A DNA stretch of 64,000 bases, taken from a virus. Both the position numbers and the translations under genes were made by a program. Numbering within the stretch: the first letter of the stretch is position 1; each line of letters starts with the position of its first letter. Of the stretch, positions 16,905 through 61,814 are shown one piece after another. The stretch lies in the IMG/VR virus record IMGVR_UViG_3300007770_000580, positions 1-64,000 of that record. One strand, given 5' to 3'. The notes beneath the pieces are model-generated. The model was not told where the DNA came from, made no database searches, and saw only the letters and a program-made list of their open reading frames with translations.

Positions 16905-17657
16905 CTAAGGCCACATAAAAATATTATTAGCGTTTCCTGATTCTATAATTTCCCTGGTGCGATCTGTTTTTAAACCTGTTAATAATAGTGTAGTTCTAAG
17001 CGTATTAGAAGCATTTGCTGTTGCGTGAGGAACATTAGCCCAATCAAATGTATGACAGTCACCTGCTTTCCAGTTTGTATACGTATACGTTCCGTACTGA
17101 TAAAACTGACCAGGTTCCCAGTCAGTAAGAAATATTGCTATTCTACAGATTTGTTCTGGATCCGATGGCTTCCAATCCCATAGTTTATCAATATGCCTGT
17201 TAAACATTTGCCCAGTGTGTTGTACGTGGCTGCGATATTTTTTCCTTAATCCTTCTGATAGGTCAGTGGATTCAGTCAATGCAAAGTAATCACACATAGA
17301 TTTAAGCACTGGTAAGTTTGAAAAGTCGTCAAGCATATTAGATAGTTCTAATTTGGGATCGCCGTGGCCTTGAAGAATATCATATTCTTCTTGCTCAAGC
17401 ATCGGAGACACATCATCATAATCGCCAAAATACTTTCTAGTTTCCCAACTAATTGCCTTGCTCTCATTAATAATTGTTTGCATTTCTTGGCGCCAAGATT
17501 CTGGATTTGGAAATCTTCCTAAGATCTTAAACCACTCACCTTCTTTATCTTGTCTTTCATTAATGAAATGATATTCGCTGTTTGAAACCGTCCAATCCCA
17601 ACTGCTTTTATATAAAGCAGGATCTGTTAATTTTTTATTCCAATTTGTAGTGTGCAT
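16905..17657 (-). CDS. 2-oxoglutarate/Fe(II)-dependent oxygenase-like protein
   Basis: A 250-residue protein with a predicted double-stranded beta-helix: HxD motif in NRHIDKLWDW (about 153-162) and a distal His with an Arg in VPHATANASNTLRTTLLL, the arrangement that binds iron and 2-oxoglutarate in aspartyl-beta-hydroxylase-like enzymes. Its ATG overlaps the tctA stop (TAATG), so it is the last gene of the amidinotransferase/transporter operon. Likely hydroxylates a small molecule or a protein side chain. Substrate unknown. Confidence 0.65.
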   Translation of the reverse strand: MHTTNWNKKLTDPALYKSSWDWTVSNSEYHFINERQDKEGEWFKILGRFPNPESWRQEMQTIINESKAISWETRKYFGDYDDVSPMLEQEEYDILQGHGDPKLELSNMLDDFSNLPVLKSMCDYFALTESTDLSEGLRKKYRSHVQHTGQMFNRHIDKLWDWKPSDPEQICRIAIFLTDWEPGQFYQYGTYTYTNWKAGDCHTFDWANVPHATANASNTLRTTLLLTGLKTDRTREIIESGNANNIFMWP

Positions 17658-19165
17658 TATGTATAATCAAGTCCTTTGTCTTTTCTTACTATACTATTTA
17701 CTAAAATACCAATACTAATTACAATGCAAATAAGAAAAATAGGATGATTGTATATATTAAACAGTTCAAGCCATCTAAAATCTGCCATTGAACTGAGTCC
17801 AGGCTTCCATTGCTTATATCCATATAGTTGCAATGTGCCCCAAAAATACTCATCAATCTTAAATGCTACAACATATGCGACAAGAATAGCCGGCCTACTT
17901 ATGTTAAACATTTTACACACAACACCGATCGCGCTTAGAATGGCTAATAGTGCCAAATCTTCCCAACCACCTGTGTATTGCATATTAGCGTAGACAATTA
18001 CTCCTAGAATAAATGTTGCGTAAATCCAAAAAGGAACTTCTAAGAGTTTTAGAATATACTTGTATAAGAATATACTTAATAATGCTACACCCACTGTTCC
18101 AAATATATAACCAAATGCTAAACTGTTTGTAAACTGTAGATCGTCTAGTAGACTAGGCGTGCCAATTTCCATACCAAAATACATACAAATTGCCATAACC
18201 ATAGCCGCAAATGGCGCGGCTGGTATTCCAAATAAACACGCAGGTATCATACTAGATACTTTTTGTGCGTTATTTGCTCCTTCACAGCCTAACAATCCAA
18301 CAGGATTGCCTTCACCAAAAGGAACTTCTTGCTTATCTTCTTTGTGTGCCGCTTTTGTGGCGCCGTATGCTAAGAAGTCGCCTACTGCTCCTCCTACGCC
18401 TGGTAATAAACCAGTAACAAACCCGATTAAGCCACCGCGTATCATATCTTTCCAATTTTTTCTAACGTCACCAAAGCCTTGCCTTAGGCCTTTCCAGTAA
18501 TTACCTTCAAGTGGTGGCGCCGCTGATTTTAATTGCCTTCTAAATCCGTCTAATAATTCTGGAACTCCAAACAATCCTGAAAGCAACACAACCATTCCAA
18601 TTCCATTTTGTAAGTATTCCCAACCGAAAGTTAATCTTGGATTACTTACGACATCTTCTCCTACCATACCCACTGCTAGTCCAAATATAATAGCACAAGT
18701 GCTTAGGAAGATACTCTTGCTGGCTACAAAACCTACGCAGGCTAATGCCATTGTCATAAACCCTAAAAACTCCGGGCGTCCAAATAATACTATAATTTTT
18801 CCATAGTATGGAAGTAAAAAGAAAGTTAATGCCGCAAATACGACACCATTAAATGTTGAATCAGCAATAGCAATTCCCATTGCTCTCGCCGCCTGGCCCT
18901 TCTTTGCCATTGGGTAGCCGTCAATAATACAGGCCGCTGTTGTACTTGCGCCAGGTATACCAGTAAGAATACTAGTATAACTATCAGCACTGGCGCAACT
19001 TGCTACAATAGCAGTTAAAAAGACCAATCCCAAGTAGGGGTCAGTCATGAAGTATGCGCCCATACTAAAGACAGTTATCAAGGCGGTAGTAACACCTGCT
19101 ATAGGAATAATTCCTACTAACATTCCATAAGCGGTGCCAACTAACGCCCAGATAACATAATCCAT
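17657..19165 (-). CDS. TctA-family transporter membrane subunit (copy 1)
   Basis: A 502-residue, highly hydrophobic protein with about eleven membrane segments and the signatures of the large subunit of tripartite tricarboxylate transporters: GFVTGLLPGVGGAVGDFLAY, then FGEGNPVGLLGCEGANNAQK and IPACLFGIPAAPFAAM. Length is normal for TctA. Such permeases import carboxylates with the help of a periplasmic TctC protein and a small TctB subunit. Here TctC is next door, but no TctB gene is present anywhere in the window. It lies 4 nt after tctC. A phage-borne copy is unusual. Confidence 0.85.
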   Translation of the reverse strand: MDYVIWALVGTAYGMLVGIIPIAGVTTALITVFSMGAYFMTDPYLGLVFLTAIVASCASADSYTSILTGIPGASTTAACIIDGYPMAKKGQAARAMGIAIADSTFNGVVFAALTFFLLPYYGKIIVLFGRPEFLGFMTMALACVGFVASKSIFLSTCAIIFGLAVGMVGEDVVSNPRLTFGWEYLQNGIGMVVLLSGLFGVPELLDGFRRQLKSAAPPLEGNYWKGLRQGFGDVRKNWKDMIRGGLIGFVTGLLPGVGGAVGDFLAYGATKAAHKEDKQEVPFGEGNPVGLLGCEGANNAQKVSSMIPACLFGIPAAPFAAMVMAICMYFGMEIGTPSLLDDLQFTNSLAFGYIFGTVGVALLSIFLYKYILKLLEVPFWIYATFILGVIVYANMQYTGGWEDLALLAILSAIGVVCKMFNISRPAILVAYVVAFKIDEYFWGTLQLYGYKQWKPGLSSMADFRWLELFNIYNHPIFLICIVISIGILVNSIVRKDKGLDYT

Positions 19166-19169
19166 AATT

Positions 19170-20222
19170 TTAGTCTAAAAGTTCAGGCTTATAAACTGAT
19201 GGAAAACCATATGCTTCTTGGTTCCATCTAACTGCGTCCCTAAGGGCTTTCTCTGTAATTAAAGATTTTAGTGCCGCCAATAATGATGGACCATCTTGAA
19301 TCCATGGATATACTCCTGTCTTTGCGTAAATCTCTGCTGATGCAACTGGATCATTAATCATCTCAGTTACGGCCGCTTTAACTTTTGCCGCATTTGGATT
19401 ACCTTTGTTCATCCAAAGTGATTTTTGTATTGCATCACGCCAGTTACGAGTAAGTTTATATGCGTTATATAAATCGCCTGAAGGTCTTTCGCCCCATAGT
19501 GACTCATAAACATCTTCAAACTGTGTGTTAGGAAAGTTTGGATCTGCAATTTGTACATTGTTTTCTAGATCTAGAATACCGTGTGTAAACCAAAGTTCGT
19601 TGCCAGCGATGCCTTCGTAAAAGCGTTTCCAAGCCGCTGGTGATTCACGGGCAACATCAAATTCTCCGTTTTTAAATCCTAGGCGCTTTTCACCGCCTGA
19701 TACACCGTTAACCCAAATAACACGCTCTCTCCAACATGCCAAGTATTCATCGACAGTATTGTCGCCTTGTGGTCCACATAGTAACATTGCAACTGCCGTC
19801 GCATCTGGTTCAAAACCTGATCCACCAGCAACCGTCCATGTGCCTTCTTTTTCTTGGGCACCTTCATGCTTACCAAGAACAATATCATTGTTCATTGAAC
19901 CAATTAATTCATAGTCAAAGTAGTTGTAATCGACCTTGTCTAGCAAGTATGATACACCATTACCACCGTGAGCAACCATAATTGTTTTGTCATCAAAACG
20001 TAGGCTGTTGTGGAATTTATTAAAGCCAGGAATATCTCTTGCACCTGGAATATGGCGTACTACTACTGGTTCACCAATGAACTTCTCTAGGTTTTTTGCA
20101 ATAATTTCGCTCCATACCGAAGTACCCTTACCAGGCGCTTGGGGAACAATTAAAGTATAATCAGCTAATGCTGGTAGTGCGATGCCTACTGAAAGCATAA
20201 GTGAAAGAATTAAACGTTTCAT
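19170..20222 (-). CDS. TctC/Bug-type periplasmic solute-binding protein (copy 1)
   Basis: A 350-residue secreted protein with a clear Sec signal (MKRLILSLMLSVGIALPALA, cleavage before DY). The mature N-terminus YTLIVPQAPGKGTSVWSEII and EPVVVRHIPGARDIPG match the Bug/TctC substrate-binding fold that feeds TctA permeases. An AAGGAG ribosome binding site precedes the ATG. The 150-nt upstream region holds two tandem palindromes and a late element. The ligand cannot be predicted; family members bind citrate, other carboxylates and amides. Confidence 0.8.
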   Translation of the reverse strand: MKRLILSLMLSVGIALPALADYTLIVPQAPGKGTSVWSEIIAKNLEKFIGEPVVVRHIPGARDIPGFNKFHNSLRFDDKTIMVAHGGNGVSYLLDKVDYNYFDYELIGSMNNDIVLGKHEGAQEKEGTWTVAGGSGFEPDATAVAMLLCGPQGDNTVDEYLACWRERVIWVNGVSGGEKRLGFKNGEFDVARESPAAWKRFYEGIAGNELWFTHGILDLENNVQIADPNFPNTQFEDVYESLWGERPSGDLYNAYKLTRNWRDAIQKSLWMNKGNPNAAKVKAAVTEMINDPVASAEIYAKTGVYPWIQDGPSLLAALKSLITEKALRDAVRWNQEAYGFPSVYKPELLD

Positions 20223-20261
20223 GTAATTTCTCCTTGTTGAATAATGTTGTTTAATGTTTTT

Positions 20262-20288
20262 ACTCGTGACGAGTTACTCGTGACGAGT
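20262..20288. promoter_or_regulatory. Two tandem palindromes in the tctC leader
   Basis: ACTCGTGACGAGT occurs at 20262-20274 and again at 20276-20288 (period 14 bp). Each copy is a 6+6 inverted repeat around a single central base. They lie about 40 nt before the tctC start and downstream of a late element, so they may act as a repressor site or as RNA hairpins in the leader. The rest of 20223-20373 shows no gene. Confidence 0.6.
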
Positions 20289-20343
20289 GTTGCGGGATAA
20301 CTCTAATGAACTTCTTGCGGAGCGTTATTAAAGTTAGTAAATT

Positions 20344-20351
20344 TATTTATT
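20344..20351 (-). promoter_or_regulatory. T4-type late promoter element upstream of tctC
   Basis: Minus-strand AATAAATA about 120 nt upstream of the tctC start, giving a long leader that contains the tandem palindromes. Confidence 0.45.
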
Positions 20352-20373
20352 AATTAGCGCAGTTCTACTATAA

Positions 20374-21036
20374 TTATTTTGACCACCATTCAGTTCCGGG
20401 CTTTGCGTGTTCTTGTATCTTAGCACGGGCTATTCTATCTAACTCTGTCTCTTCAACAGGGGAGACGTACTTAGCATTGGCATTGGCTTTTAAAATTTCA
20501 TTAATCGATGGGTGGTCGTATGCAATAGGAAAATCTAGTATCTTATTAAGATATTTTAAATATTGATGTTCATATAGGCATAACATTTCATAACTAATAT
20601 AGTCTATATTTAGATTTCCTAGTTGTTGTTCGATTGCTTCGAGCATATGCGTATAGGTTACTCGACCGCGTAATCTTTTTTGTTGGGCTTCTAATATGTT
20701 TTTATCTCGGCCAATAATTGCCACTTGAACTGACCATCCGTTTTTAGTTGCCCCATTAATAAATTCTTTAAACGGAGGTATTGTTGTTACTCCATTTTGA
20801 ATATAAGGAACAGAAATACTGACGCAAGCATATTTGTAATTTCTAAAGTCCGCAGTGTCCCATTCAGATGGATTATTCCAGAACTTATTAAAAGGTTCTA
20901 AATCGTGTGCTACCCAATAAGTCTCATTAAGTTCCTTCCAACCAAAGACTTCCGGATGCAACTCAAATACTTTGCTGTACATGTGGTTTCCGGACCCTTG
21001 TGGTCCAACTAATAGCAATAACTTTTTATTATTCAT
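20374..21036 (-). CDS. Sulfotransferase-like P-loop protein (copy A)
   Basis: A 220-residue protein with an N-terminal P-loop-like motif KLLLLVGPQGSGNHMYSKVF (residues 4-23), of the kind that binds the PAPS phosphosulfate group in sulfotransferases, followed by HPEVFGWKE. The rest is soluble and mixed alpha/beta. It lies in the operon with two PRMT-like proteins and an amidinotransferase. A plain P-loop kinase cannot be excluded. A second protein of this type opens the operon at 24.8-25.4 kb. Confidence 0.55.
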   Translation of the reverse strand: MNNKKLLLLVGPQGSGNHMYSKVFELHPEVFGWKELNETYWVAHDLEPFNKFWNNPSEWDTADFRNYKYACVSISVPYIQNGVTTIPPFKEFINGATKNGWSVQVAIIGRDKNILEAQQKRLRGRVTYTHMLEAIEQQLGNLNIDYISYEMLCLYEHQYLKYLNKILDFPIAYDHPSINEILKANANAKYVSPVEETELDRIARAKIQEHAKPGTEWWSK

Positions 21037-21066
21037 GGAGCGTTATTAGCGGGGGGATTATGAAAG

Positions 21067-21074
21067 TATTTATA
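21067..21074 (-). promoter_or_regulatory. T4-type late promoter element
   Basis: Perfect minus-strand TATAAATA about 30 nt upstream of the sulfotransferase-like gene, within the 21037-21079 gap. Confidence 0.5.
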
Positions 21075-21079
21075 TTTTT

Positions 21080-22018
21080 TTAAATTTTCTCGGAAAGAAT
21101 GAAAAAGGTATTTTTTTCTTTATCGAAACGTACTACAACGTTGTCAGTAGTTTTATTAAATTCATAATACCATGTTGGCCAACACTCTCCTGCCATGTTT
21201 AATATATTGCTATCGACTGTAATAGGCTTTTTTCTTCCTAACTCTGCTATAAACATAGCGGTGTATTTTTTATTAGGTAATGAAGAACGCATTTTCCAAG
21301 TTAAATCTTTTACAGGGGCGTATGCATCAAATTTTACGATATCTTTTAAACATGGTGTAGATGACACAATTTTATCAAATGTATATGTTCTTAGATATCT
21401 TAAATTATATTGATTCCAACTGTCCATTCTTTTATATTCTTCATACTTATAATCTCCATCAAGAGCATATTGATTATCGAATTCTTTGATTCCTGTTTTC
21501 ATTCTATCTATCCTGGCTTTTAACCCATTTTCTAAAACATATCCAGGCAAGAGATAAAATGAACCAGAAGCATAATTTGGTATTATTATAGGATTTATGT
21601 GACTTTCATTAATTATATGACAAAAATTAGACCATGGTCCATATACCTGATCAAATATTTCACCTGAAACTGTTTCAGACACTACTACGTCTGGATCAGG
21701 GCCCGGTAAATTTTCAAGAATATCTTTTGTAAATAGTCCTTCAATTAGTGTATATTTTTCTTTTGGTATATTATTTTTTTCAAGATTATATTTAGCTGCT
21801 TCTATAAATTCTGGATTAACATCTACCATATAAACATGCTTTGCTCCATGATATAAAGCCATAAAGGATAATATACCTGATCCTGTGCCTATATCTAAAA
21901 CTATTTTATCTTTACAAACCTTTGATAATTCATTGAAAAGCCAAATATTTCTTTTATTACACGCTCCAATCATTTTTTCATGACTATATTCTCTAATAGG
22001 TGCAAAGGTAATATTCAT
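21080..22018 (-). CDS. PRMT-like SAM-dependent methyltransferase (copy 1)
   Basis: A 312-residue class I methyltransferase: SAM-binding motif I VLDIGTGSGILSFMALYHGA (41-60), motif post-I HVYMVDVNPE (61-70) and, at 111-124, VVVSETVSGEIFDQ. The last lies at the position of the double-E loop of protein arginine methyltransferases, although only E115 fits well. A beta-rich C-terminal half is also PRMT-like. It follows a second, similar gene with a 38-nt gap and has a GGAG ribosome binding site. Likely methylates a guanidino or amino compound or a protein; unproven. Confidence 0.65.
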   Translation of the reverse strand: MNITFAPIREYSHEKMIGACNKRNIWLFNELSKVCKDKIVLDIGTGSGILSFMALYHGAKHVYMVDVNPEFIEAAKYNLEKNNIPKEKYTLIEGLFTKDILENLPGPDPDVVVSETVSGEIFDQVYGPWSNFCHIINESHINPIIIPNYASGSFYLLPGYVLENGLKARIDRMKTGIKEFDNQYALDGDYKYEEYKRMDSWNQYNLRYLRTYTFDKIVSSTPCLKDIVKFDAYAPVKDLTWKMRSSLPNKKYTAMFIAELGRKKPITVDSNILNMAGECWPTWYYEFNKTTDNVVVRFDKEKNTFFILSEKI

Positions 22019-22056
22019 AATATGTCTCCAAATTTACGTTGTTTTTTTCGTTTATA

Positions 22057-22986
22057 TTAGTCAAAAATAAAATCATTTATTTTAGGATCGCGATCATATT
22101 TTATTTTAATGGTGTCAGATATTTTATCGAATTTATATATATGCGTTGGCCAAAGGTCTTGTTGCATTACATGTAAGGTACTATTTTTAATTTGAGAACA
22201 GTTTAATAATCCAATTAGCATAATGCCGTAATTGCCATTTGGTAAATTAGAAGTAGTAGTCCACGTTTCATTTATATTTGGATTATGAAAATCAAAATGT
22301 ATTACATTTCTTAATGTTTCGACAGTTGATTGCAATGCTGATTCGCGTAACTTTAGTAAGTAATTGTAATCAGATCTACCTTGTAATTGCTTACCGACTT
22401 TATATCTTTCTAGTTGTTTAAATTTTTTACCAAATAAAGATGCATTTATAAAATAACTATTATCTACTTCTTTAACGCCGGTTGCCATAATACCTGTTAC
22501 TTCATTGTCTTGTCTATGCTTATCAATAACGTCAAACATCTCAGTATTGGTAAAGATTGACAAAGAACCATATATTGTGTCAGGTATTAAAATAGCGTTC
22601 TTTGTATTTATATTTTGTTTTATAGGTTTATAAATTTCCTCTAAATTAATTTCAAACAAATTGCCACATATTAACTCACTTATTACTACATCTATTTGTG
22701 GTAATTCCTTTAAAACATCTATTAATTCTGAATTAATAATAGTATAACGAGATTCATCTATGTTCGCTTGTTGCATAATAGAATACGCCAACTCACAACA
22801 CTCTTTATTGTGATCAACCATATAAATATGTTTTGCTCCAGAATGCAATGCGAATAATGAAAGAATTCCTGACCCTGAACCAATATCCAAACAAATTTTA
22901 TTATTGCATACTGCTTTTATTTGTTTGTAGTACCAATTGTTTCTTAATGGACTAGAAAAAAGTAGGGATTGATCATAAATTCGCAT
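22057..22986 (-). CDS. PRMT-like SAM-dependent methyltransferase (copy 2)
   Basis: A 309-residue paralogue of the next gene. Motif I is ICLDIGSGSGILSLFALHSG (31-50), with HIYMVDHNKE following. The loop ISELICGNLFE (102-112) carries two glutamates (E104, E112) around an aromatic residue, close to the SExMGxxLxxE double-E loop with which PRMTs hold the arginine guanidinium. The C-terminal half is beta-rich. It lies just downstream of an amidinotransferase that would act on arginine-type guanidinium, which makes a guanidino substrate plausible. Confidence 0.65.
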   Translation of the reverse strand: MRIYDQSLLFSSPLRNNWYYKQIKAVCNNKICLDIGSGSGILSLFALHSGAKHIYMVDHNKECCELAYSIMQQANIDESRYTIINSELIDVLKELPQIDVVISELICGNLFEINLEEIYKPIKQNINTKNAILIPDTIYGSLSIFTNTEMFDVIDKHRQDNEVTGIMATGVKEVDNSYFINASLFGKKFKQLERYKVGKQLQGRSDYNYLLKLRESALQSTVETLRNVIHFDFHNPNINETWTTTSNLPNGNYGIMLIGLLNCSQIKNSTLHVMQQDLWPTHIYKFDKISDTIKIKYDRDPKINDFIFD

Positions 22987-23005
22987 ACATTAAATGTTTT
23001 CCTAA

Positions 23006-24154
23006 TTAATTAAAGTAATCTTCTCTATCGCCTTCACGATGTATATCTAAAGTAATACAATGTAAACCGCCATCCCAAAAGTATCTATGTCTAAATGGGG
23101 CAACAATGTATTCTACTTTATGTTTTTTAAAGGCTGCTTTTAATTCTTCCGGCGGCTCGTTTGTACATAATATCAAGTTTTCATTAATACTTAACATGTT
23201 AACATCAAATACACTTTCCTCAATATAGCCCACCCATTCATCTAACCATTTTCCTACAAAGTCAATAAGCATTGCATTAGTCTCTTCACCTTGTATCCAC
23301 CACTTACCTTGATTAGAGTATTTTATTTTTTCAAATCCTTTTACTACATTATTGGCCCAACCTTGTTCGTGTAAATAAACACCTTCCCAATTTGGTACCG
23401 TATTTTTGTATTCATCAAAGTCAGTAGTATGTACATATAACCCTGGCTTAATAGGACAAAAAACGCCATCAGAATGGCCACCAATGTTTGTATATTTAAT
23501 ATCATAATTTTCGAATTCTTTTTTTATCCATTGCTGTTGATAAGCAGGAAAATTATCAACAATTAATCTATTACCTAATCTAACTAAGCAGGGTGCATCT
23601 ATCATATGCGTTCTAATCTTTAAATGTTCTGGATCCATGCCAGGTATCATCTTTCCTTGGCTTTTTCTATACATTGACTGCCTATCATTAATTGATACCA
23701 ATTCTTGCATTATGCTTTTAAACTCTGTTTCGGTTAATTTTTTTAAGGATTTTAAATCTTTATCATTACGATAAGGATCAAATACTTTACCCTCCTCTGC
23801 CGTCATGTTAAACACAGGATCCATTTCTTCTTTATATATAAAACGATATAAAGTGTTCCCTATTGTAATGTATCCGTCCCTAACTGCCAAAGACGGTATA
23901 GGTGGTTTATGTTTTTCTCTTATACATTCTTGCAATAAGTCTTTTGGTGGAGTTCCGGGCCTATAAACGGTAACATCGTGTTCTTTAAGAACAGTACATA
24001 AATTATCTAAATCTCTATTAGTTTCTTCAAGTATTCTTTTTAGAGGACTTTTTATGCGATCTTCAGTAATAAAGTCGAAAGAATGCTCGTGATATGTTCT
24101 TCCAACAATTATTTCTTTAAGTGGCTGGAAGTCTGTATGGCAGTTTATTTTCAC
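23006..24154 (-). CDS. Amidinotransferase (arginine:X amidinotransferase / guanidino-modifying superfamily)
   Basis: A 382-residue protein of the glycine-amidinotransferase and arginine-deiminase superfamily. The catalytic Cys lies near the C-terminus in FWDGGLHCITLDIHREG (C366, preceded by H365), with the active-site His/Asp in GGHSDGVFCPIKPG (H227, D229), as in AGAT and StrB. Length and motif order fit a transamidinase better than a deiminase. It should move an amidino group from arginine to an amine acceptor. It ends where the upstream methyltransferase gene starts and is followed by two PRMT-like genes. Very unusual in a phage. Confidence 0.8.
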   Translation of the reverse strand: MKINCHTDFQPLKEIIVGRTYHEHSFDFITEDRIKSPLKRILEETNRDLDNLCTVLKEHDVTVYRPGTPPKDLLQECIREKHKPPIPSLAVRDGYITIGNTLYRFIYKEEMDPVFNMTAEEGKVFDPYRNDKDLKSLKKLTETEFKSIMQELVSINDRQSMYRKSQGKMIPGMDPEHLKIRTHMIDAPCLVRLGNRLIVDNFPAYQQQWIKKEFENYDIKYTNIGGHSDGVFCPIKPGLYVHTTDFDEYKNTVPNWEGVYLHEQGWANNVVKGFEKIKYSNQGKWWIQGEETNAMLIDFVGKWLDEWVGYIEESVFDVNMLSINENLILCTNEPPEELKAAFKKHKVEYIVAPFRHRYFWDGGLHCITLDIHREGDREDYFN

Positions 24155-24829
24155 TTACTTTGCCCAAACAAAATACACTCTATTCTTACCATCTGTGCGT
24201 AAATCTAATACAGTGACACCTAAAAAGTCTGCTGTATTAATAATAAATGTGGGCGTCCAAGCATAAAATTGTATCCAGTCGGCCTCCATTGGATCGTGCA
24301 TCAGGCCTGGATTAACTCTAAAAAATATTTTACCACCAGGTGAGGTTAATTTAACTACACGCTCTAACTCATTGAGTATTTTATTTGTATCACCAAAGTT
24401 AATAGAACCCAAACACAACACCACATCGTATGTAACGTCAGGATCGTAATCCATAATGCCTTTTATAATATCTGCTTTTGGATTATATGGATCAAGTCCC
24501 GTTAGATTATGTATGTTACCTCTAAATTCATTATATCCACAACCAACATCTAATACATTCTTTGGATTAAGGTTATTAACTTCATCAATTAAAGCGGGGC
24601 CGCTGTATTTGTATTTTTTAAGTTCGGGTTGCCATACTCTAGAAAAATAATTTTCTAATACTTTGTCGTCTACTTTATCTACTAACTCGCCTATGTGATT
24701 AAATGAAACATCATCTACCCATACATTAAAAATGCCTTGTATGGATTGCCGTAGTTTATGTTCGTCGCGTAAAATTTGTGGAGATGTTTTAAACATATCC
24801 TCTAGTTGACTAAGTATTTTTAAATTCAT
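24155..24829 (-). CDS. Class I SAM-dependent methyltransferase
   Basis: A 224-residue protein with motif I VLDVGCGYNEFRGNIHNLTG, the acidic residue in GLDPYNPKAD, and the motif FDVV-like segment TYDVVLCLGSINFGD, then PGGKIFFRVNPG. This is a standard Methyltransf_11-type fold for small molecules. The ATG overlaps the end of the upstream sulfotransferase-like gene by 4 nt and its stop abuts the amidinotransferase start, so these genes are coupled. Confidence 0.8.
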   Translation of the reverse strand: MNLKILSQLEDMFKTSPQILRDEHKLRQSIQGIFNVWVDDVSFNHIGELVDKVDDKVLENYFSRVWQPELKKYKYSGPALIDEVNNLNPKNVLDVGCGYNEFRGNIHNLTGLDPYNPKADIIKGIMDYDPDVTYDVVLCLGSINFGDTNKILNELERVVKLTSPGGKIFFRVNPGLMHDPMEADWIQFYAWTPTFIINTADFLGVTVLDLRTDGKNRVYFVWAK

Positions 24830-25443
24830 AGTACTGCTACTTTGATGTCATTGTGTGCGTATATTTGGTGAACATTGTCAAGTGGCATGCTAATGCCTAA
24901 TCTTTCACACAATTCAAAGTTATCTTTTACATTCCACTTTAAACTATGTTTCTTAACAAAAGCCCGTATATGTTTGTTTTGTAGGGCAATTTGCTTCTTC
25001 ATCTTAGCGTCGTCTTCATACCATGCATAATTTGGATAACTTATACCAAATCCACCTGCTGTTTTCCACCAGTCAAAACATTTATTGTTCGACCTATATA
25101 CAAGTATTATTCTAGCATAACTCCAAGTTTCATGCAAGTAATCCAAGCCAGTTGCCATTGTATGGCTTTTAATAATTCTATACTTGCTTTTGTTTAGTAT
25201 GCCTTTGAATGGTTTATTGAACTCTGCTTCGTTTTGTTTAACGTCTCTACTACTAATATCGTCAAACCATGTGCCGAATTCCATACCTGGGTCAAAGTAT
25301 GAGCCTGTGTGTTTTGCTATAGCATACGTGTATTGTCGATCAGCAGTTTGGTCTGTAGCATCTATTTCTGCGGAACTGCTAATATACTTAGCAACGCTAC
25401 TCCAACGAGAACCAGGAGCACCGACGAGAAAAATATAACTCAT
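24826..25443 (-). CDS. Sulfotransferase-like P-loop protein (copy B)
   Basis: About 205 residues. The N-terminus MSYIFLVGAPGSRWSSVAKY carries a phosphosulfate-binding-loop-like motif, and RIILVYRSNNKCFDWWKTAGG resembles the 3'-phosphate-binding region of sulfotransferases. I placed the start at the ATG at 25441-25443. The 12 residues upstream in frame (MRPQRAPNISIC) cross a terminator-like hairpin and would need a non-ATG start. It is the first gene of the metabolic operon running to 16.9 kb. Confidence 0.55.
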   Translation of the reverse strand: MSYIFLVGAPGSRWSSVAKYISSSAEIDATDQTADRQYTYAIAKHTGSYFDPGMEFGTWFDDISSRDVKQNEAEFNKPFKGILNKSKYRIIKSHTMATGLDYLHETWSYARIILVYRSNNKCFDWWKTAGGFGISYPNYAWYEDDAKMKKQIALQNKHIRAFVKKHSLKWNVKDNFELCERLGISMPLDNVHQIYAHNDIKVAVL

Positions 25444-26729: not shown

Positions 26730-28037
26730 GTGAAACTCAACGAAAAAAACAAGAACGTTTATTGCCCTGCTCCTTTCCACGAACAATTAGTTGATTCCGA
26801 CGGAACCATTAAACCTTGCTGTGTGGCTAAAGGAACTGTTTATAATGACGATGGTTCTGAAGCAAACATTACTGTTAATAGTTTACAAGAAGTTTGGAAT
26901 AACAAACATATGCAAGAAATACGTCAAAATATGATTGACGGTATAGAACCTGCAAATGAAATGTGTGACATTTGTTATAATCTCGAACGCTACGGCTTGC
27001 ATAGTAATAGAATAAATGAATTAGAACAATACAAAGACTACGTAGATACTGCTATTGTCGACGAACTTCCTGATTATTATGATTTAAGATTTGGAAATTT
27101 ATGCAACCTACAATGTATAATGTGTGATGCTCATTACAGTTCTCGTTTGATGACGGAGCAAGAAAAAATTTTAGATTTATTAAAAAATGACATAGAATAC
27201 ACGAATTACTTATTAGAAGAGAATTATACCAGATCAAATACAGTATGGGGCAGAAGTAATGCGGCCAAATATGCATGGCCTGCCGACGATAAAATTTTTA
27301 ACAATATTCAGAATAGAATGTCTAAATCTAATTGTAGAAAAATCTATGTCAATGGCGGCGAGCCTACCTTATATAATAAATCATTAGTTAAGATGTTAGA
27401 GTTGTTAATAGAATCTAAACAAGCAAAAAACATGGAACTTTGGATTAATACTAACGCTACGATTGTTGATTTAGAGTTTTATGAGTTACTTGATCAATTT
27501 AAACAAGTGCGATTAATGTTGAGCATTGATGGTGTAGAAGAATCATTTGAGTACATTAGATATCCCGCAAAATGGAGTAACATTGACGATAATATTATTA
27601 AAATTGTTGATTTTGTTAGTAATTCAGATGATATGTATAAATGGAGAATTGAATTTCAACCTACATTTCAACTACTTAATTTATTAGACATTACTAAGAT
27701 GATTGAATATTGGTTATCTATTAGGCAAAAAATACCTTGTTACTTTACTCTAAATAAGTTAAGTGATCCGAGTTGGTATGATGTTGATATAGCAAACATA
27801 GAAATTAAAAACAAAATCAAAAAAGAAGTACAAAGCAAATTTGTAGAAGAAGATAAAGAAGTTTCAGATTTAATTTCTTATATTAGTAATATTATGTCAT
27901 ATGAAACCTTGCAAGAAGAAGAACATAGACGAATGTTAATTGATTGTGCTATAGATATGCATGAAATATATAAAAATGTTAGAAGTATTGATAAATTAGA
28001 CGACTGGTTTTACAATACTATAGATAAACTGCGTTAA
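26730..28037 (+). CDS. Twitch-type radical SAM protein (paralogue 1)
   Basis: A 435-residue radical SAM protein. The N-terminal region carries cysteines C12, C30, C31, C79 and C82 in the order of a twitch/SPASM half-domain for an auxiliary Fe-S cluster. The radical SAM motif CNLQCIMC follows at C125, C129 and C132. VNGGEPTLYN is the SAM-contacting GGE motif and MLSIDGVEESFEYIRYPAKW is typical of peptide- or cofactor-modifying radical SAM enzymes. The start is a GTG with a late element 4 nt upstream. It faces phoH divergently and ends 1 nt before the stop of the opposite-strand membrane gene. Substrate unknown. Confidence 0.75.
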   Translation: MKLNEKNKNVYCPAPFHEQLVDSDGTIKPCCVAKGTVYNDDGSEANITVNSLQEVWNNKHMQEIRQNMIDGIEPANEMCDICYNLERYGLHSNRINELEQYKDYVDTAIVDELPDYYDLRFGNLCNLQCIMCDAHYSSRLMTEQEKILDLLKNDIEYTNYLLEENYTRSNTVWGRSNAAKYAWPADDKIFNNIQNRMSKSNCRKIYVNGGEPTLYNKSLVKMLELLIESKQAKNMELWINTNATIVDLEFYELLDQFKQVRLMLSIDGVEESFEYIRYPAKWSNIDDNIIKIVDFVSNSDDMYKWRIEFQPTFQLLNLLDITKMIEYWLSIRQKIPCYFTLNKLSDPSWYDVDIANIEIKNKIKKEVQSKFVEEDKEVSDLISYISNIMSYETLQEEEHRRMLIDCAIDMHEIYKNVRSIDKLDDWFYNTIDKLR

Positions 28038-46480: not shown

Positions 46481-47593
46481 TTATTTATGACTCAAAGAAT
46501 GACTTTCTAAATTAGTGATCCACGAATTTAAAAACCCGTCTACATCTTTTAACTGCTTATATCTATGAAAATCTTGTGATTCTATTTCTAATTTTAATAA
46601 TTTATGTGTATTTTTGTTATAATTATCTTCGCTATATTTTTTAATCAACGAGTCAATAATTAATTTGAAAGATCCTGCTCGATGAGGTGCTATTGTATAG
46701 TTTTTTAATAGTGTTAAGTTATCAATATAGTTTTGCCTTTCAGACATAGGTACTGTTATATGTGTCCACATATCTCCCCGTACATGCGAAATATTAATAT
46801 CTTTAGTATATTGACTCATCCATTCTACAGTTTTGTAAATGGTGTGTGTAACTATGTTTGAAGCCACTAGATTAAACATTATATGATTACTATTATCTTT
46901 ACAAAATTTTACATTTTCTTCAAACTGTTGCCAATTGAGAGGGAATCGCACATAGCACCCTAGGTCCTCTATAGCATCACACGATATAGTAACTGTAAAA
47001 TTTTTAAATTTAGGTATAAATTCTTTCCATTCTTTAGATAAGCTTTTTAAATTAGTGTTCATTACTATTTCGCATTCTGGATTAACTACTAATAATTCTT
47101 TTAAAAATTCTAAATATTTTTTATTATATGTGGGTTCTCCACCTGCCATATAAACTTTTTTTAACTTCTTTTTATTATATTTGTTTAAATCATAATCAGG
47201 CAAGGTTAATGACACCCCTCTTTCTTTGGCCCACAATGTACTTGCTTTTGGACCACAAGTTTTACATTTTAAATTACAAGTAGGATCATTTCTTATATCG
47301 ATGTATTGTATATCTACAATATTAACATCAGGTGCTTGGTATTTTTTAAGCCAGTGTATAGTTTCAACAAGCCTAGGACTGATTTCTCTCTGTGCTTCTT
47401 GTGTATAACACGGTTGACAAGCACTAGGTAGTTGTCCTTCTAACATCATTGTTCTAATAGTGCTTAAGGTTTCTTCTGCTGTTAGTTCATGGCTATGACA
47501 ACAGTGTCTTTTATTTCCTCGAAGATCTAGATGTTCGTGTACCCATGGCAATACACAGATTGCTTTATTATTGATTACATCAAATTGATTCAT
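46481..47593 (-). CDS. Twitch-type radical SAM protein (paralogue 2)
   Basis: About 370 residues from the ATG at 47591-47593 (MNQFDVINNKAICVLPWVHE). This start places the first cysteine at C13, as in the paralogues, and avoids a 65-nt overlap with the HNH gene. Auxiliary-cluster cysteines are C13, C31, C32, C59 and C62; the radical SAM motif CNLKCKTC is at C106, C110 and C113; MAGGEPTYNKKYLEF is the GGE motif; ISCDAIEDLGCYVRFPLNW follows. The enzyme class modifies peptides or cofactors by hydrogen abstraction. Substrate unknown. Confidence 0.72.
   Translation of the reverse strand: MNQFDVINNKAICVLPWVHEHLDLRGNKRHCCHSHELTAEETLSTIRTMMLEGQLPSACQPCYTQEAQREISPRLVETIHWLKKYQAPDVNIVDIQYIDIRNDPTCNLKCKTCGPKASTLWAKERGVSLTLPDYDLNKYNKKKLKKVYMAGGEPTYNKKYLEFLKELLVVNPECEIVMNTNLKSLSKEWKEFIPKFKNFTVTISCDAIEDLGCYVRFPLNWQQFEENVKFCKDNSNHIMFNLVASNIVTHTIYKTVEWMSQYTKDINISHVRGDMWTHITVPMSERQNYIDNLTLLKNYTIAPHRAGSFKLIIDSLIKKYSEDNYNKNTHKLLKLEIESQDFHRYKQLKDVDGFLNSWITNLESHSLSHK
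46482..46489 (-). promoter_or_regulatory. T4-type late promoter element
   Basis: Minus-strand CATAAATA about 30 nt upstream of the 98-aa gene, overlapping the end of the radical SAM gene; leader with TTGGAG ribosome binding site. Confidence 0.45.
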
Positions 47594-47612
47594 TATTGCT
47601 ATATTAGTTAGT

Positions 47613-48167
47613 TTATACTCTGATAATGACTTCACTTTCCCAGTCACCAAAAAACTGTTCCCAACTTCTATGATCAATGAGAATTGGAAACTTTTTTCTG
47701 TTTGCTAGTAACTGGTGATAATTTGGACGGAAAGGCCACCATTTAGGTTGCCATATACCTATAGGATCTTTATTGCCTTTTAATGAATTACATTTTGTGC
47801 AGGATGAAACAATGTTCTCCCATGTTTTTTGTCCACCTTCTCGCCTGGGAATAACATGGTCATAAGTAAGTTCACGTATTGTTATAGGTTTTTCGCAATA
47901 TACGCAAAGGCCGTGATCGCGATAATACAATGATTCGCGTTTTAATTTTAAAACATTTTTAACATTAATATATGTATTGCGGGCAATTACACTAGGCCAA
48001 TTCATATCTAAACTTGGTGATAAAATCTTTCTATCGTAATCAAATACCGAATGGCATCTATCATTGAAAATTCTACCCACAGCATCTTCCACTGGAATGG
48101 TGTGCAGTGGTAATAAAGATATTGGCATGTAAGAGGCATTAAGAACTAGTGTTCGTAAACCTATCAT
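47613..48167 (-). CDS. HNH endonuclease
   Basis: A 184-residue HNH nuclease. A zinc site is formed by CVYCEKPITIRELTYDHVIP and CTKCNSLKGNKDP, enclosing the HNH core DHVIPRREGGQKTWENIVSS. It is of the type common in cyanobacteria and their phages. It lies directly downstream of two tRNA genes, the usual place for homing nucleases in phage genomes. AGGGAG ribosome binding site and a late element upstream. Confidence 0.85.
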   Translation of the reverse strand: MIGLRTLVLNASYMPISLLPLHTIPVEDAVGRIFNDRCHSVFDYDRKILSPSLDMNWPSVIARNTYINVKNVLKLKRESLYYRDHGLCVYCEKPITIRELTYDHVIPRREGGQKTWENIVSSCTKCNSLKGNKDPIGIWQPKWWPFRPNYHQLLANRKKFPILIDHRSWEQFFGDWESEVIIRV

Positions 48168-49252: not shown

Positions 49253-50374
49253 CTATTTATAATCTGCTCTTAATTTGTAAACGTTTTTGATATAATTATT
49301 TCGTTCCTGTATTTTCTCTTCATCATCTTCCATATCTGTAACAGATCGTATAATTTGATTAAGTTCTTTTAATTCATAATCATAACACATAGACTTGATA
49401 TCCAACCTGGATACTTTTTCTAGAAAAATATCACGTTCTTCCTGATTAGTACAAAAAATAGACAATGGTTTAGGAAAAAATACTTGAGGAAATACTATTG
49501 AGCAGCCCGGAGTATTCTTTTTAGCCCACTCAATAAAATCAGTAAGACAACCCAAGTTTTGTACCTGGACAGTATAAAAGTATCTCATATGGGTTCCTAG
49601 GATGTCATATGTTTTAAGTGCATTCCTTTCAAATTTCTCCCATTGTGCTGGCCAACGTATGCTATTATATGTTTCTCCTATGCCATCTACACTTACGTTG
49701 AGAAGTATTTTTTTATACTGGTCTTTCCATCTTTTTAATGCATCTAGTTTAACAACAGTAAGATTAGTAAAAAAATCTAATTCAATTCTTTGCTTATTTG
49801 GAATACTTTCAATAAATTCTGTGTACTCATTCCCATAGAAAGGCTCCCCGCCTTGCAAGGTAAGAAATCTTAATTCATCTAGATTTTTATTAATTAAATT
49901 AATTTGATCTTCTTCTATTAAAATCTCATTATCTTTTATGCCTTCTAGTTTACCCCAAAGGCTGCTAACACCAGGCCAACACATTGTACATGCTAGATTA
50001 CATTTATTATGTAATCTAATATCCAGTTTAACAATTTTTCCGATTTGTTCTGTTGGCCAGTGATGTAGTCGCGCTTCAACAATTTCTTGTTGTCTTAAAC
50101 TGTCGACTCCGGCTTTTTCCTTTATCCAACAGAAATGGCATTCAGGAATTTCTACGCCTTGTTTTAGAAGATCATGCTTTTTGTTTATTGTTTTTCTGTA
50201 ACGATCTATAGTGGAGTAATCATCAGACTGGGTATCGTAAACTTTTGCGGGATCATTGGGCTGACCCGACGCTCCTAATTCATTATTAACTGCGTAATTA
50301 CAACATGGATAATGTCGGCCAAGATGGTCTATCATCAATTGATGGTCCATTAATGGACAATAAAGAGATTTCAT
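49253..50374 (-). CDS. Twitch-type radical SAM protein (paralogue 3), leaderless late gene
   Basis: A 373-residue protein with the shared architecture: C6, C24, C25, C79, C82 (auxiliary cluster), then CNLACTMC at C125, C129 and C132, LQGGEPFYGNEYTEF, and NVSVDGIGETYNSIRWPAQW. The ATG is 6 nt after AATAAATA with no ribosome binding site, so a leaderless late mRNA is predicted. It ends before a hairpin terminator at 49.2 kb. Substrate unknown; see the finding on the radical SAM set. Confidence 0.75.
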   Translation of the reverse strand: MKSLYCPLMDHQLMIDHLGRHYPCCNYAVNNELGASGQPNDPAKVYDTQSDDYSTIDRYRKTINKKHDLLKQGVEIPECHFCWIKEKAGVDSLRQQEIVEARLHHWPTEQIGKIVKLDIRLHNKCNLACTMCWPGVSSLWGKLEGIKDNEILIEEDQINLINKNLDELRFLTLQGGEPFYGNEYTEFIESIPNKQRIELDFFTNLTVVKLDALKRWKDQYKKILLNVSVDGIGETYNSIRWPAQWEKFERNALKTYDILGTHMRYFYTVQVQNLGCLTDFIEWAKKNTPGCSIVFPQVFFPKPLSIFCTNQEERDIFLEKVSRLDIKSMCYDYELKELNQIIRSVTDMEDDEEKIQERNNYIKNVYKLRADYK

Positions 50375-51177: not shown

Positions 51178-51861
51178 TTATATTTCTCTTGATAATAAAG
51201 TGGAATAATCTTCTTGATAATTGACGTTAAAGAATTCACCTTTAAGGTTATATGCGTGAATAATCTCATTATTATTTATTGCAGTTTGAATTACTTCTGG
51301 GTAATTTGTTTGTGTAGAAATATAATCTAGGACAGATTTTTTAAACATTCCATAGCCAGTGCCATGCCAATTGTTGATAATCTTAGTAGGTTTTTCAACT
51401 AAGTTTTTTACTCTAATATTATCTTCAAACTCTATAGAAAAACATTTCTTAATTCTTTCTTCAGTTCCATTTGTATATGCACCAATCACGCCAAATGAAT
51501 CATAACCATAAAAGAAGTCAAGCATATGTTCTATATCATTGTTAAGTGCAAGTTCGTCTCCAAAGCAAGTAATAAAGTCGTTATCATCTATAATATCAGA
51601 CACTATAGTTAAAGCATATTTAAGTGATGATACAACACCATCTGTATTGTGTAAAAATATAACTTGTGGAAACACTTGAGAAATTTCTTTTTTAGTGTGT
51701 TCACTGTCGTAACCTGTTACTACAAACACGTCACTACATAATGGAAGGAGCATTTCAATGTTATAAAATATTAGTGGCTTGTCTTTATATAGTAAAAGAC
51801 TTTTATTAGTAGGATTACTAAAACGTGTTCCTCTGCCGCCAGCAATTATTATTCCTTTCAT
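51178..51861 (-). CDS. Sugar-phosphate/choline-phosphate nucleotidyltransferase-like protein
   Basis: About 227 residues starting MKGIIIAGGRGTRFSNPTNK, the G-x-G-T-R-x(n)-K signature of NTP-transferases such as RmlA, GlmU-N and LicC, followed by FITCFGDELALNND with the metal-binding Asp. The ATG at 51859-51861 overlaps the upstream TGA (ATGA), which fixes the start. It probably makes a nucleotide-activated sugar or alcohol. Lies between a SPASM-type radical SAM enzyme and an oxygenase. Confidence 0.75.
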   Translation of the reverse strand: MKGIIIAGGRGTRFSNPTNKSLLLYKDKPLIFYNIEMLLPLCSDVFVVTGYDSEHTKKEISQVFPQVIFLHNTDGVVSSLKYALTIVSDIIDDNDFITCFGDELALNNDIEHMLDFFYGYDSFGVIGAYTNGTEERIKKCFSIEFEDNIRVKNLVEKPTKIINNWHGTGYGMFKKSVLDYISTQTNYPEVIQTAINNNEIIHAYNLKGEFFNVNYQEDYSTLLSREI

Positions 51862-52763
51862 GGTATTTGTGACTCCCACATGGCTTCTTTTTGTGCTGGC
51901 ATGTCACATTTAACACACTTATTTAAAAATTTTCCTTGTGCATGATTCTTACGTATGTTAACATACGAATCGTTATTAACAATATTCGTTAAACTTTCTT
52001 CGTTTAAATCTCCCAAAATATATTCGCCATCACTATCTAAACAACATAAACTAATTCTGCCGTCCCATAACACAGTAATACTTGACCAAAGTCTATGGCA
52101 TAAAAAGTGTTTGCTTGTTGTGCCATTGCCCCAGTTATGTAAACTAATATTGTTTACTTTGTCTAGTGCGTTATACTTTTTAAACAAATTAAAAAACTCT
52201 TCTTCTTCTTGCGGAGTGCTGATGCCTGAACGTATATAATCGAACTTTACAATGTCTAAGTCGCCAGGGTGCTTTAATAGTTCTTCTATATACTTAAAAA
52301 ATCTAGTAGCAGACTTATTGGGCCTGGTTAGATTAAACTCCCTTGTAGGAGATATGGAGATTATTGCTTCAGTTATTCCATTTCCCTTCCACTTGTTTAG
52401 TAATTTAGGTGTTAAACCATATCCATTTGTGTGTATGTATATTTGGTTAAATCCAAATTGCCTTGCTTTATTTGCTATTTTTGGTAAGCGTTTGTCTAAT
52501 ATTGGCTCACCCATAAAACGCAAATCCAACTTCTTTATACCTAATTCGTTTGCTTCTTTTAATACACCATAAGCAAAACTTTCTGGCATAAATCCTTTTT
52601 CGCGTTCCATTTCGCCATATGTACAAAACGTACATTCAAAGTTACAATGGTTTGTTGATTCAAGTCGCAAAACTACCGTACTAAAATCTGTTAGTATACC
52701 ATTCTTGTTGTTTCTTTTATGATCCCATTCTAAAGGAATTAGTTGGTTAACTTGCTTAAACAT
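51858..52763 (-). CDS. Radical SAM/SPASM-domain protein
   Basis: A 301-residue classic radical SAM/SPASM enzyme: CNFECTFC at C40, C44 and C47, FMGEPILDKRLPKI in place of GGEP, and a C-terminal SPASM-like domain with ITVLWDGRISLCCLDSDGEY, LGDLNEESLTNIV and CVKCDMP. Unlike the four twitch-first paralogues, the auxiliary cluster is C-terminal. It is the first gene of a three-gene unit with a nucleotidyltransferase and an oxygenase. The upstream region 52764-52820 is divergent to paralogue 4 and contains a small CGGAG/CTCCG repeat. Confidence 0.8.
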   Translation of the reverse strand: MFKQVNQLIPLEWDHKRNNKNGILTDFSTVVLRLESTNHCNFECTFCTYGEMEREKGFMPESFAYGVLKEANELGIKKLDLRFMGEPILDKRLPKIANKARQFGFNQIYIHTNGYGLTPKLLNKWKGNGITEAIISISPTREFNLTRPNKSATRFFKYIEELLKHPGDLDIVKFDYIRSGISTPQEEEEFFNLFKKYNALDKVNNISLHNWGNGTTSKHFLCHRLWSSITVLWDGRISLCCLDSDGEYILGDLNEESLTNIVNNDSYVNIRKNHAQGKFLNKCVKCDMPAQKEAMWESQIP

Positions 52764-52813: not shown

Positions 52814-52821
52814 TATAAATA
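52814..52821 (+). promoter_or_regulatory. T4-type late promoter element, leaderless type
   Basis: Perfect TATAAATA, then TGTTT, then ATG at 52827 (5-nt gap). It overlaps an upstream in-frame ATG at 52821, which is therefore unlikely to be the start. Confidence 0.65.
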
Positions 52822-52826
52822 TGTTT

Positions 52827-54131
52827 ATGACCGAACCAATTTATTGCCCAGTTGCTCAGGCAGGATTTTCTACTTTAGAACAGGGATTTGTTTCAATTTG
52901 TAACCAATATACTGATTTACTTAAAAAGCAGGGCGGCGAATACTATCGACTACATAAAGATAGTATACAAGATGCTTGGAACAGTGAAGAAAGAAAAAAA
53001 ATAATAGAGCAAATGAACGCAGGTATATGGCCAGAAGCATGTGAGTCATGTAGATTTGCTGAAGAAAATGGTTATAATAGTCAAAGATCGGATATTATTA
53101 CAGAACTAACAACATTAGCAGAACAAGAAAAAATTACTATTCAGCCAAGAGAGGATCAACCTATTGCTGTTGTATTAAAACATGGAAACGTTTGTAATAA
53201 TGCATGTAGAGCCTGTGATCCTACTACATCTACTCAGTGGTATAAAGATGCTTGGAAATTAGAAGGAAGTACAGGCACATTGAAAGAATGGATAGATAAT
53301 CCTGTTAGAGATTATTCCAAAGGACAAATAAGTTACGACGAAAATAACCAAGACATTCGTAAGGTATTCTTTGGAGAAGATGGTAAATCAGGTTGGAATG
53401 AGCATGTTATTTTTTGGGATCTGTACGGTGGCGAACCATTATTAAATAATTTAACTTATGAATTAATAGACCATAGTATTGCAATAGGCGTGGCACATAA
53501 ACAGCGATTTGGTATACACACTAACTGTACAATTTATCGTGATGGCTTTGCTGAAAAACTAGCAAAATTTTCATATGTTAATTTAGGCCTAAGTCTTGAT
53601 GCGTCAGGAGTACACAATGATTATATTAGACATTTAAGTAAATGGCAAAATGTAGAAAATGTTGTTCAACAATATCATGAGTCAACAAAAAAATATGATA
53701 ACGTAGTGCCATCAATCGCTATCACTCAGCAAACTCTAAGTATATTTTATCTTCCTGAAACCTTTGACTGTATCGCTGAAAAAAGATGGGCAGAAGATTA
53801 TGGAAATTCTCTTGTATCTTGGGGTAATAAGGTTTATAACAAAAAAGAATGTAATATAAATTACATTCCTGAACCTATTAAAGAAAAAATTAAAACCAAG
53901 TTGTTAAATTATAAACCGAAAGGAAAAAAGTTAACAAGAGAATGGTTTAATTCATTAGACGAGTCGATCGCCGCATTAGACACATATCCCGATGACTACG
54001 AAGAACATCGGGATACGTTTTGGAAAGTTAATAATAGGTTAGATAAAATACGCGGGCAATCCTTTAAAGAAGCAATGCCCGAATATTATAGTTTGTTTGC
54101 TGAGTATTATAAAGGCGTTAACTTAGATTAG
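52827..54131 (+). CDS. Twitch-type radical SAM protein (paralogue 4), leaderless late gene
   Basis: A 434-residue protein from the ATG at 52827. N-terminal cysteines C7, C25, C72 and C75 (one fewer than the paralogues), radical SAM motif CNNACRAC at C123, C127 and C130, then DLYGGEPLLNNLTYEL and LGLSLDASGVHNDYIRHLSK. No ribosome binding site. Its last codons overlap the opposing glutathione peroxidase gene by 14 nt. Function unknown. Confidence 0.75.
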   Translation: MTEPIYCPVAQAGFSTLEQGFVSICNQYTDLLKKQGGEYYRLHKDSIQDAWNSEERKKIIEQMNAGIWPEACESCRFAEENGYNSQRSDIITELTTLAEQEKITIQPREDQPIAVVLKHGNVCNNACRACDPTTSTQWYKDAWKLEGSTGTLKEWIDNPVRDYSKGQISYDENNQDIRKVFFGEDGKSGWNEHVIFWDLYGGEPLLNNLTYELIDHSIAIGVAHKQRFGIHTNCTIYRDGFAEKLAKFSYVNLGLSLDASGVHNDYIRHLSKWQNVENVVQQYHESTKKYDNVVPSIAITQQTLSIFYLPETFDCIAEKRWAEDYGNSLVSWGNKVYNKKECNINYIPEPIKEKIKTKLLNYKPKGKKLTREWFNSLDESIAALDTYPDDYEEHRDTFWKVNNRLDKIRGQSFKEAMPEYYSLFAEYYKGVNLD

Positions 54132-57690: not shown

Positions 57691-58548
57691 TTAAAAGACT
57701 TTTCTGTCCCTAAGATTCCAACTTAATTGTGGCTTTACATTAGATATATCTGTCTGGTGTGAAAGCCAATATTTCCAAAACTCTTCAAATAATTGTAAGT
57801 TTGGCTCAAGCCCATATCTATTACAAATTTCTATGTAATATTTTTCATTCAAATGGCAGGTCTGTGGATTGACTAACCTATCAATATATATAGCACTACT
57901 ATTGACATTTGATTTAAACTTTTCGTGCTCCATCAATATAGTCTTTTTGTTCTCCATAAAAGAATCATGATACGGGTAATCATTCCATTCAGCCACAGGA
58001 TCTGAACATTTACTTGCTATCTCTCCTTGCCAGTCTTGAAACGCAATAGATCTATACTGTAGTGGGGTCATACCTAATCCAAATTGTCTATCCGCAAACT
58101 CTTGGTTTTCTGGATTATTAAGTGGAAAGTTTTTCTTTTGTACATTATACCAAGAGCCATATAACATTTTATCAAGTAATTTAAAATGTGCGTAAGCAAG
58201 GTAATACTCTATAGATGCCGTATTCTCAGCCATTAATGTGATAGTTTTACTTCCTGGAAACTTATCTAGTAGTTGTTGTTCATGCATAACAAAACTTGCT
58301 TGGGCAAAATTTATATTCTCATTTAATGTGATTTGCTTATATAGATTAGGATCATTTGCTTGTTCAGTTTGCCATCGAGGATAATACCAGGCCCAATTTA
58401 ATATTATTCCTGGATTAGTAACTCTCATTCTGTCTCTTGCAATTTTATAGTTAACTTGCTTGTTATGCAAATTCATAAAAACAGTAAAACTGTCGCTAAC
58501 AAATCCTATATAACCGCATATCCACACTAAATTATTAAAAACTGTCAT
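57691..58548 (-). CDS. Hypothetical protein (285 aa) coupled to a PP-loop ATPase
   Basis: A 285-residue soluble protein, Trp- and Tyr-rich, for example ILNWAWYYPRWQTEQANDPN. I recognise no family. The ATG overlaps the stop of the PP-loop ATPase gene by 4 nt. It may bind or modify the ATPase's substrate. Last gene of the second TctC/TctA operon; its 3' end abuts the box of the next promoter. Confidence 0.6.
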   Translation of the reverse strand: MTVFNNLVWICGYIGFVSDSFTVFMNLHNKQVNYKIARDRMRVTNPGIILNWAWYYPRWQTEQANDPNLYKQITLNENINFAQASFVMHEQQLLDKFPGSKTITLMAENTASIEYYLAYAHFKLLDKMLYGSWYNVQKKNFPLNNPENQEFADRQFGLGMTPLQYRSIAFQDWQGEIASKCSDPVAEWNDYPYHDSFMENKKTILMEHEKFKSNVNSSAIYIDRLVNPQTCHLNEKYYIEICNRYGLEPNLQLFEEFWKYWLSHQTDISNVKPQLSWNLRDRKVF

Positions 58549-59702: not shown

Positions 59703-59703
59703 A

Positions 59704-60984: not shown

Positions 60985-60987
60985 TAA

Positions 60988-61806: not shown

Positions 61807-61814
61807 TTTTTTTC

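Follow-up and report, generated by a model that had tools for sequence, protein, structure and literature searches.

Why would a phage carry, side by side, the genes for a solute importer and genes for enzymes that could sulfate, hydroxylate and methylate a compound? Phage auxiliary genes mostly encode isolated enzymes or steps that resemble those of the host. The question is raised by nine genes in the window analysed here, a stretch of 64,000 nucleotides (positions 1 to 64,000) from the 65.8-kb IMG/VR virus record IMGVR_UViG_3300007770_000580, itself a fragment. Since the window contains tail-fibre, baseplate and virion genes, PhoH, many radical-SAM (S-adenosylmethionine) genes and 12 tRNAs, its source is a large tailed phage, uncultured and of the marine type. 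A preliminary description had read the nine genes as one operon, centred on a guanidino compound and comprising an AGAT-type amidinotransferase, methyltransferases, sulfotransferase-like proteins, a TctC/TctA transporter and an oxygenase. Its family assignments hold up; the nine genes do not form one unit, and only a smaller subset stays together across relatives. This core appears to consist of TctC, TctA, a putative 2-oxoglutarate (2OG)-Fe(II) oxygenase, sulfotransferase-like protein B and a SAM-dependent methyltransferase (MT), with the amidinotransferase, two methyltransferases resembling protein arginine methyltransferases (PRMTs) and sulfotransferase-like protein A as probable lineage-specific additions. 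The analysis suggests that these phages cause infected cells to import a specific organic acid and probably to modify it.

The evidence for the core comes from the neighbourhoods of TctA in other viruses. An initial scan returned 31 close TctA loci, and searching with divergent TctA sequences from phages returned at least 464 viral contigs. The best-scoring 80 of the 464 were analysed and dereplicated at 85% TctA identity, which left 23 representatives besides the window, reaching down to 37% TctA identity. Within seven genes of TctA, TctC was found in 23/23 of these representatives, the MT in 20/23, and the oxygenase and sulfotransferase B in 19/23 each; sulfotransferase A was present in 8/23, the amidinotransferase in 1/23 and a PRMT in 0/23. 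When the same profiles were applied to 77 control neighbourhoods centred on AGAT, they detected the oxygenase 5 times, the MT 4 times and sulfotransferase B once (Fisher p of about 2e-12 or lower for the enrichment of each enzyme beside TctA). The expectation that the genes would be conserved together in related phages was therefore borne out for TctC, TctA, the oxygenase, sulfotransferase B and the MT, and failed for AGAT and the PRMTs. In many distant phages, the genes for TctA, TctC, sulfotransferase B and the oxygenase overlap by 1–14 nt, which would fit one translation-coupled unit. The site of the module varies: it lies with PhoH and virion genes in the window and with terminase in L220, L222 and L015. 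It was not seen among 50,697 GenBank phage records, a search of which gave only distant TctA (in fecal or enterobacterial records), no TctC and no oxygenase. The module thus appears to persist as a set in many phages that are only distantly related, and it is in no cultured phage record searched.

The transporter is of the type of the tripartite tricarboxylate transporter (TTT) systems, in which a secreted binding protein works with a permease thought to be ion-coupled, the substrates being mostly carboxylates (PMC5812351). The identity of TctA as a TTT permease is certain, the PF01970 match covering model positions 2–422 of 423. Its partner, a TctC-type secreted binding protein, gave no Pfam match (PF03401 included); it has a full-length tblastn match (4e-6) to an annotated TctC adjoining a TctA, and a profile built from 25 divergent members, run against the PDB, gave weak matches, all of them to Bug/TctC proteins (BugD, 0.025). 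A signal-peptide-like N-terminus is present in 73/78 TctC homologues. The ratio of nonsynonymous to synonymous substitution rates (dN/dS) for TctA is 0.03–0.08, and in the comparison with L005 it is 0.042 (dS 1.05) versus 0.130 (dS 0.89) for PhoH; TctA is under strong purifying selection. The evolutionary distances of TctA and TctC are correlated across 23 taxa (r = 0.93). Taken together, the two genes probably encode a working uptake system.

Other observations concern transporter genes elsewhere in the window and in relatives. A protein family termed c9 (about 116 aa, with around four hydrophobic segments) adjoins the module in L220, L221, L003-L009, L258 and L276, and was not found in the window; it is a possible candidate in some relatives for TctB, which has four transmembrane segments. 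A second transporter pair, distantly related to the first, lies on the minus strand of the window; its TctA-family permease is 22% identical to the first TctA, and its partner (272 aa) begins with a signal-peptide-like segment. A PP-loop-like enzyme follows this pair and a phosphoribosyl pyrophosphate synthetase precedes it. The second pair also occurs in L309 (89% and 78% identity), and a diverged version is present in G019 (28% and 25%), where the binding protein is duplicated.

The three core enzymes are recognized with differing ease. Sulfotransferase B has a Sulfotransfer_3 match in 10/25 relatives (best 2.6e-5), and its GxPGSxWS loop is invariant in 25 relatives. The MT has a weak Methyltransf_23 match (2.3e-5). 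The oxygenase has no Pfam, PHROG or PDB match, so its assignment rests on motif: the HxD...H iron site and distal Arg of 2OG-Fe(II) oxygenases (H155, D157, H211 and R221) are invariant across 20 divergent homologues. In L005-L009, a 174-aa tryptophan 2,3-dioxygenase-like gene (PF03301, 1.8e-43) lies between sulfotransferase B and the MT.

The history of the cassette is seen in its near-identical counterpart in L002, where TctA is 99% identical and the AGAT-PRMT-PRMT segment is absent between the MT and sulfotransferase A; this segment is an optional part of the cassette. Between the window and L002, the dS of the block from sulfotransferase A through TctC and TctA to the oxygenase is 0.07–0.17, whereas that of PhoH and a virion gene is about 1.0, so the cassette has moved as a block between lineages of phages. 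As to where TctA came from, the closest bacterial TctA in a plasmid set is about 31–35% identical to the phage protein, and two scans of 84,980 genomes for sequence patterns, which were phage-specific, gave no cellular source. In a tree, the phage TctA proteins (the second, distant permease excepted) stand apart from four bacterial TctA proteins, which group with a support of 100/100; phage-to-phage transfer is therefore a simpler history than repeated capture from hosts, with the reservation that this bacterial sample is small.

The accessory enzymes have a history of their own. The amidinotransferase profile has human AGAT, HsvA, SxtG and StrB as its sole significant matches, and the active site that had been proposed is kept in the phage homologues (Cys366 in 95/95, His227 in 94/95 and Asp229 in 95/95), as is the guanidinium-binding D93 (94/95). 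The residue corresponding to human D254 is D186 in the window copy; overall, this site is Asp in 15/95 and Asn in 40. The protein is, judging by these alignments, a true relative of AGAT/StrB within a separate and widespread phage family, with relatives on at least 547 viral contigs (examples are L036-L115) and, in some phages, several paralogues per genome. Members occur beside ribonucleotide reductase, near psbA and, in the cyanophage S-SCSM2R, beside KdsA, KdsB and 2OG oxygenases; they are also common in phages without the TctA gene set, and in a 322-kb genome AGAT lies about 24 kb away from TctA. The copies nearest to that of the window, in L036 and L037, do not adjoin TctA. For the PRMT-like pair, the best PDB matches are PRMT1-type proteins, over the SAM domain only; the two are 33% identical to each other, and in their double-E loop the first Glu is invariant, the second position being variable and alignment-dependent. 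PRMT-like 1 was seen to adjoin TctA in just one other lineage, of the L005 type. The AlphaFold model of sulfotransferase A (predicted local distance difference test score, pLDDT, of 79) has as top PDB matches sulfotransferases that use 3'-phosphoadenosine-5'-phosphosulfate (PAPS), with E = 2e-4 and a template-modelling score of about 0.4, and kinases close behind. In L010, L015, L028 and others, it is followed by a gene pair encoding a protein resembling adenosine-5'-phosphosulfate (APS) kinase (c7) and a nucleotidyltransferase-like protein (c8), a pair that could supply PAPS. Two neighbours of AGAT, k5 and k7, had also been considered as APS kinases; this was wrong, their sequences being unrelated.

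How might the core proteins act together? One explanation is that, during infection, the phage TctC would be secreted into the periplasm, bind a carboxylated solute and pass it to TctA, which would import it using an ion gradient; the sulfotransferase, the Fe/2OG oxygenase and the MT would then sulfate, hydroxylate and methylate what has been imported, or an acceptor common to all three. That an importer is linked to tailoring enzymes was already suggested in the preliminary description, and the idea has stood; export or retention of a product by TctCA, also proposed there, finds no support, the family being known for uptake. That the importer and the three enzymes form a single pathway acting on an imported organic acid is a reading to which we give slightly less than even weight. 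The fuller version, a complete uptake-and-modify pathway in which a specific organic acid is imported and turned into a new, phage-made metabolite by three dedicated enzymes, is advanced more tentatively. If a conserved transporter and its tailoring enzymes do work in this way, they would show that phages alter which solutes an infected cell draws from its environment.

Several observations weigh against a joint pathway. TctC is recognized only remotely and its AlphaFold model is poor (pLDDT 44), and no TctB was seen in the 65.8-kb record, which is a fragment. The distances of the enzymes are only modestly correlated with those of TctA (r of about 0.31–0.36), so that the enzymes must often have been swapped. 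Three or four of the 23 representatives are without one or other enzyme, gene order and the strand of the MT vary among relatives, and enzymes of these classes are numerous in phages of this type. Moreover, the profiles came mostly from neighbours of TctA and the loci were the best-scoring 80 rather than a random sample; the exact fractions are therefore biased, while the contrast with the controls is still large.

The main rival, which we consider rather unlikely, is that two functions lie side by side: TctCA would import organic acids (e.g., C4–C6 carboxylates) as a supply of carbon or 2OG for the infected cell, and the enzymes would decorate a polymer of the virion or the cell surface. The preference of TTT systems for carboxylates (PMC5812351), the several 2OG-oxygenase-type genes in these phages, the surroundings of the AGAT relative in S-SCSM2R and the limited correlation between enzymes and transporter all agree with such a division; what it fails to predict is that about 80% of distant lineages have the same three enzyme families next to TctCA, at different sites. 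This recurrence at several genome sites, with 37–50% TctA identity, also argues against a variable island of auxiliary genes in which passengers share a common insertion site without a joint pathway, an explanation that is improbable despite the strong variation in order, strand and accessory content and the observed exchange of the block through recombination. It is less probable still that TctC, instead of taking part in import, is a decoy or a sensor in the periplasm, or that it obstructs uptake by the host or superinfection. Some bacteria have large numbers of orphan Bug/TctC proteins (PMC5812351), and the window has no TctB, but the position of TctC next to TctA in all 23 representatives and the close co-variation of the two argue against this reading.

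The guanidino pathway of the preliminary description, in which amidino transfer from arginine would be followed by methylation, sulfation and hydroxylation to give a creatine- or alkaloid-like compound, is quite improbable, ranking below the island and above the decoy. It can draw on the catalytic residues of a true amidinotransferase with PRMT-like enzymes adjoining, on the distant phage L220, in which AGAT is grouped with the entire core set, and on the report of GAMT (guanidinoacetate methyltransferase) as a virus-enriched gene (PMC11360552). In addition, AGAT is present in 9/14 TctA-bearing versus 1/8 TctA-free contigs of at least 74 kb (p 0.03), these samples being small and unequal. Nevertheless, the guanidino pathway is rejected as the core function, given the rarity of AGAT and PRMTs near TctA and their absence from the L002 cassette. 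The tree requires six or seven changes for the AGAT copies beside TctA, which come from different branches, so the family would have entered the surroundings of TctA on about six or seven occasions. The density of AGAT in these genomes (13 copies per 2.13 Mb in 12 TctA genomes) predicts, by a hand calculation, about 0.1 per 18-kb neighbourhood, which is what is observed (1/12) and explains its occasional place beside TctA. Among the matches there is no GAMT-type methyltransferase, those of the window matching PRMTs or generic MTs.

All nine open reading frames of the preliminary description are present and run in one direction on the minus strand, from 25443 to 16905 (see the table). The gaps between them are short or the genes overlap, the exception being about 150 nt ahead of TctC, the downstream neighbour of sulfotransferase A. 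Just ahead of the TctC gene the palindrome ACTCGTNACGAGT occurs twice in tandem, a feature common only to the window and L002 and a possible regulatory site; T4-type late-promoter motifs and sigma-70-like sites are no more frequent than expected by chance. At least six radical-SAM genes lie in the 64 kb; one has a SPASM domain, and radical-SAM relatives adjoin AGAT genes in L224.

Table. Positions of the nine genes and of other features in the window, with the basis of each assignment.
Feature	Positions	Strand	Basis
Sulfotransferase-like B, core module	24826..25443	-	Sulfotransfer_3 in relatives; GxPGSxWS loop
SAM-dependent methyltransferase (MT), core module	24155..24829	-	weak Methyltransf_23
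AGAT/StrB-type amidinotransferase, accessory	23006..24154	-	profile match 4.5e-17; active site kept
PRMT-like methyltransferase 1, accessory	22057..22986	-	best PDB match PRMT1-type, 1.6e-10
PRMT-like methyltransferase 2, accessory, paralogue of 1	21080..22018	-	yeast Hmt1/PRMT1, 3e-12
Sulfotransferase-like A, frequent partner (8/23)	20374..21036	-	GPQGSGNH loop; fold match
TctC-type periplasmic solute-binding protein, core module	19170..20222	-	remote TctC match; signal-peptide-like start
TctA permease, core module	17657..19165	-	PF01970 1.2e-85
Putative 2OG-Fe(II) oxygenase, core module	16905..17657	-	H155xD157, H211, R221
Palindrome, two tandem copies	20262-20288		
Second transporter pair, region	57691-62780	-	
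Second pair, TctA-family permease	59704-60984	-	PF01970 5e-21
Second pair, partner protein	60988-61806	-	signal-peptide-like start
Radical-SAM genes	453-1604, 26730-28037, 46481-47677, 49253-50374, 51858-52763, 52821-54131		

What, then, is new in this gene set? The preliminary description knew of no such phage operon, and no paper describing the module was found in a search outside which most subscription papers and preprints lay. Glycine amidinotransferase or GAMT has been reported among viral auxiliary genes (PMC8226683, PMC11360552). The phage amidinotransferase resembles AGAT, StrB, SxtG and HsvA in its profile match and in keeping the Cys, the His and the guanidinium-binding Asp, and differs from them in forming a separate family in which the position of human D254 is seldom Asp. 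The cyanobacterial saxitoxin and cylindrospermopsin clusters likewise combine an amidinotransferase and a sulfotransferase, and in phage relatives an APS-kinase-like gene and a carbamoyltransferase lie near by; unlike these guanidino-alkaloid clusters, the window has no polyketide or peptide synthase-sized gene (its largest open reading frame, of 845 aa, is tail-fibre-like) and the amidinotransferase is outside the phage core, so that a cluster of this kind was rejected as more than an analogy.

Another precedent is found in viral contigs from single cells of SUP05, for which tctA, a 2OG-Fe oxygenase and phoH were named as auxiliary genes, the role of tctA being given as unknown (eLife 2014, PMC4164917), a mention repeated in a review (PMC6359870). 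Genes of these three kinds are thus named there too, in phages of marine bacteria; that report differs in that its available part gives a protein-domain match only and describes no TctC, sulfotransferase, MT or conserved module. A phage tctA that had been noted and left unexplained now becomes testable, with a set of five proteins defined for expression and metabolite work. Finally, the bacterial TctABC/Bug systems have the same TctA permease family and the same type of secreted TctC binding protein, encoded by adjacent genes, whereas here the transporter is encoded by a phage, has no TctB in the window and is coupled to genes for a sulfotransferase, an oxygenase and an MT.

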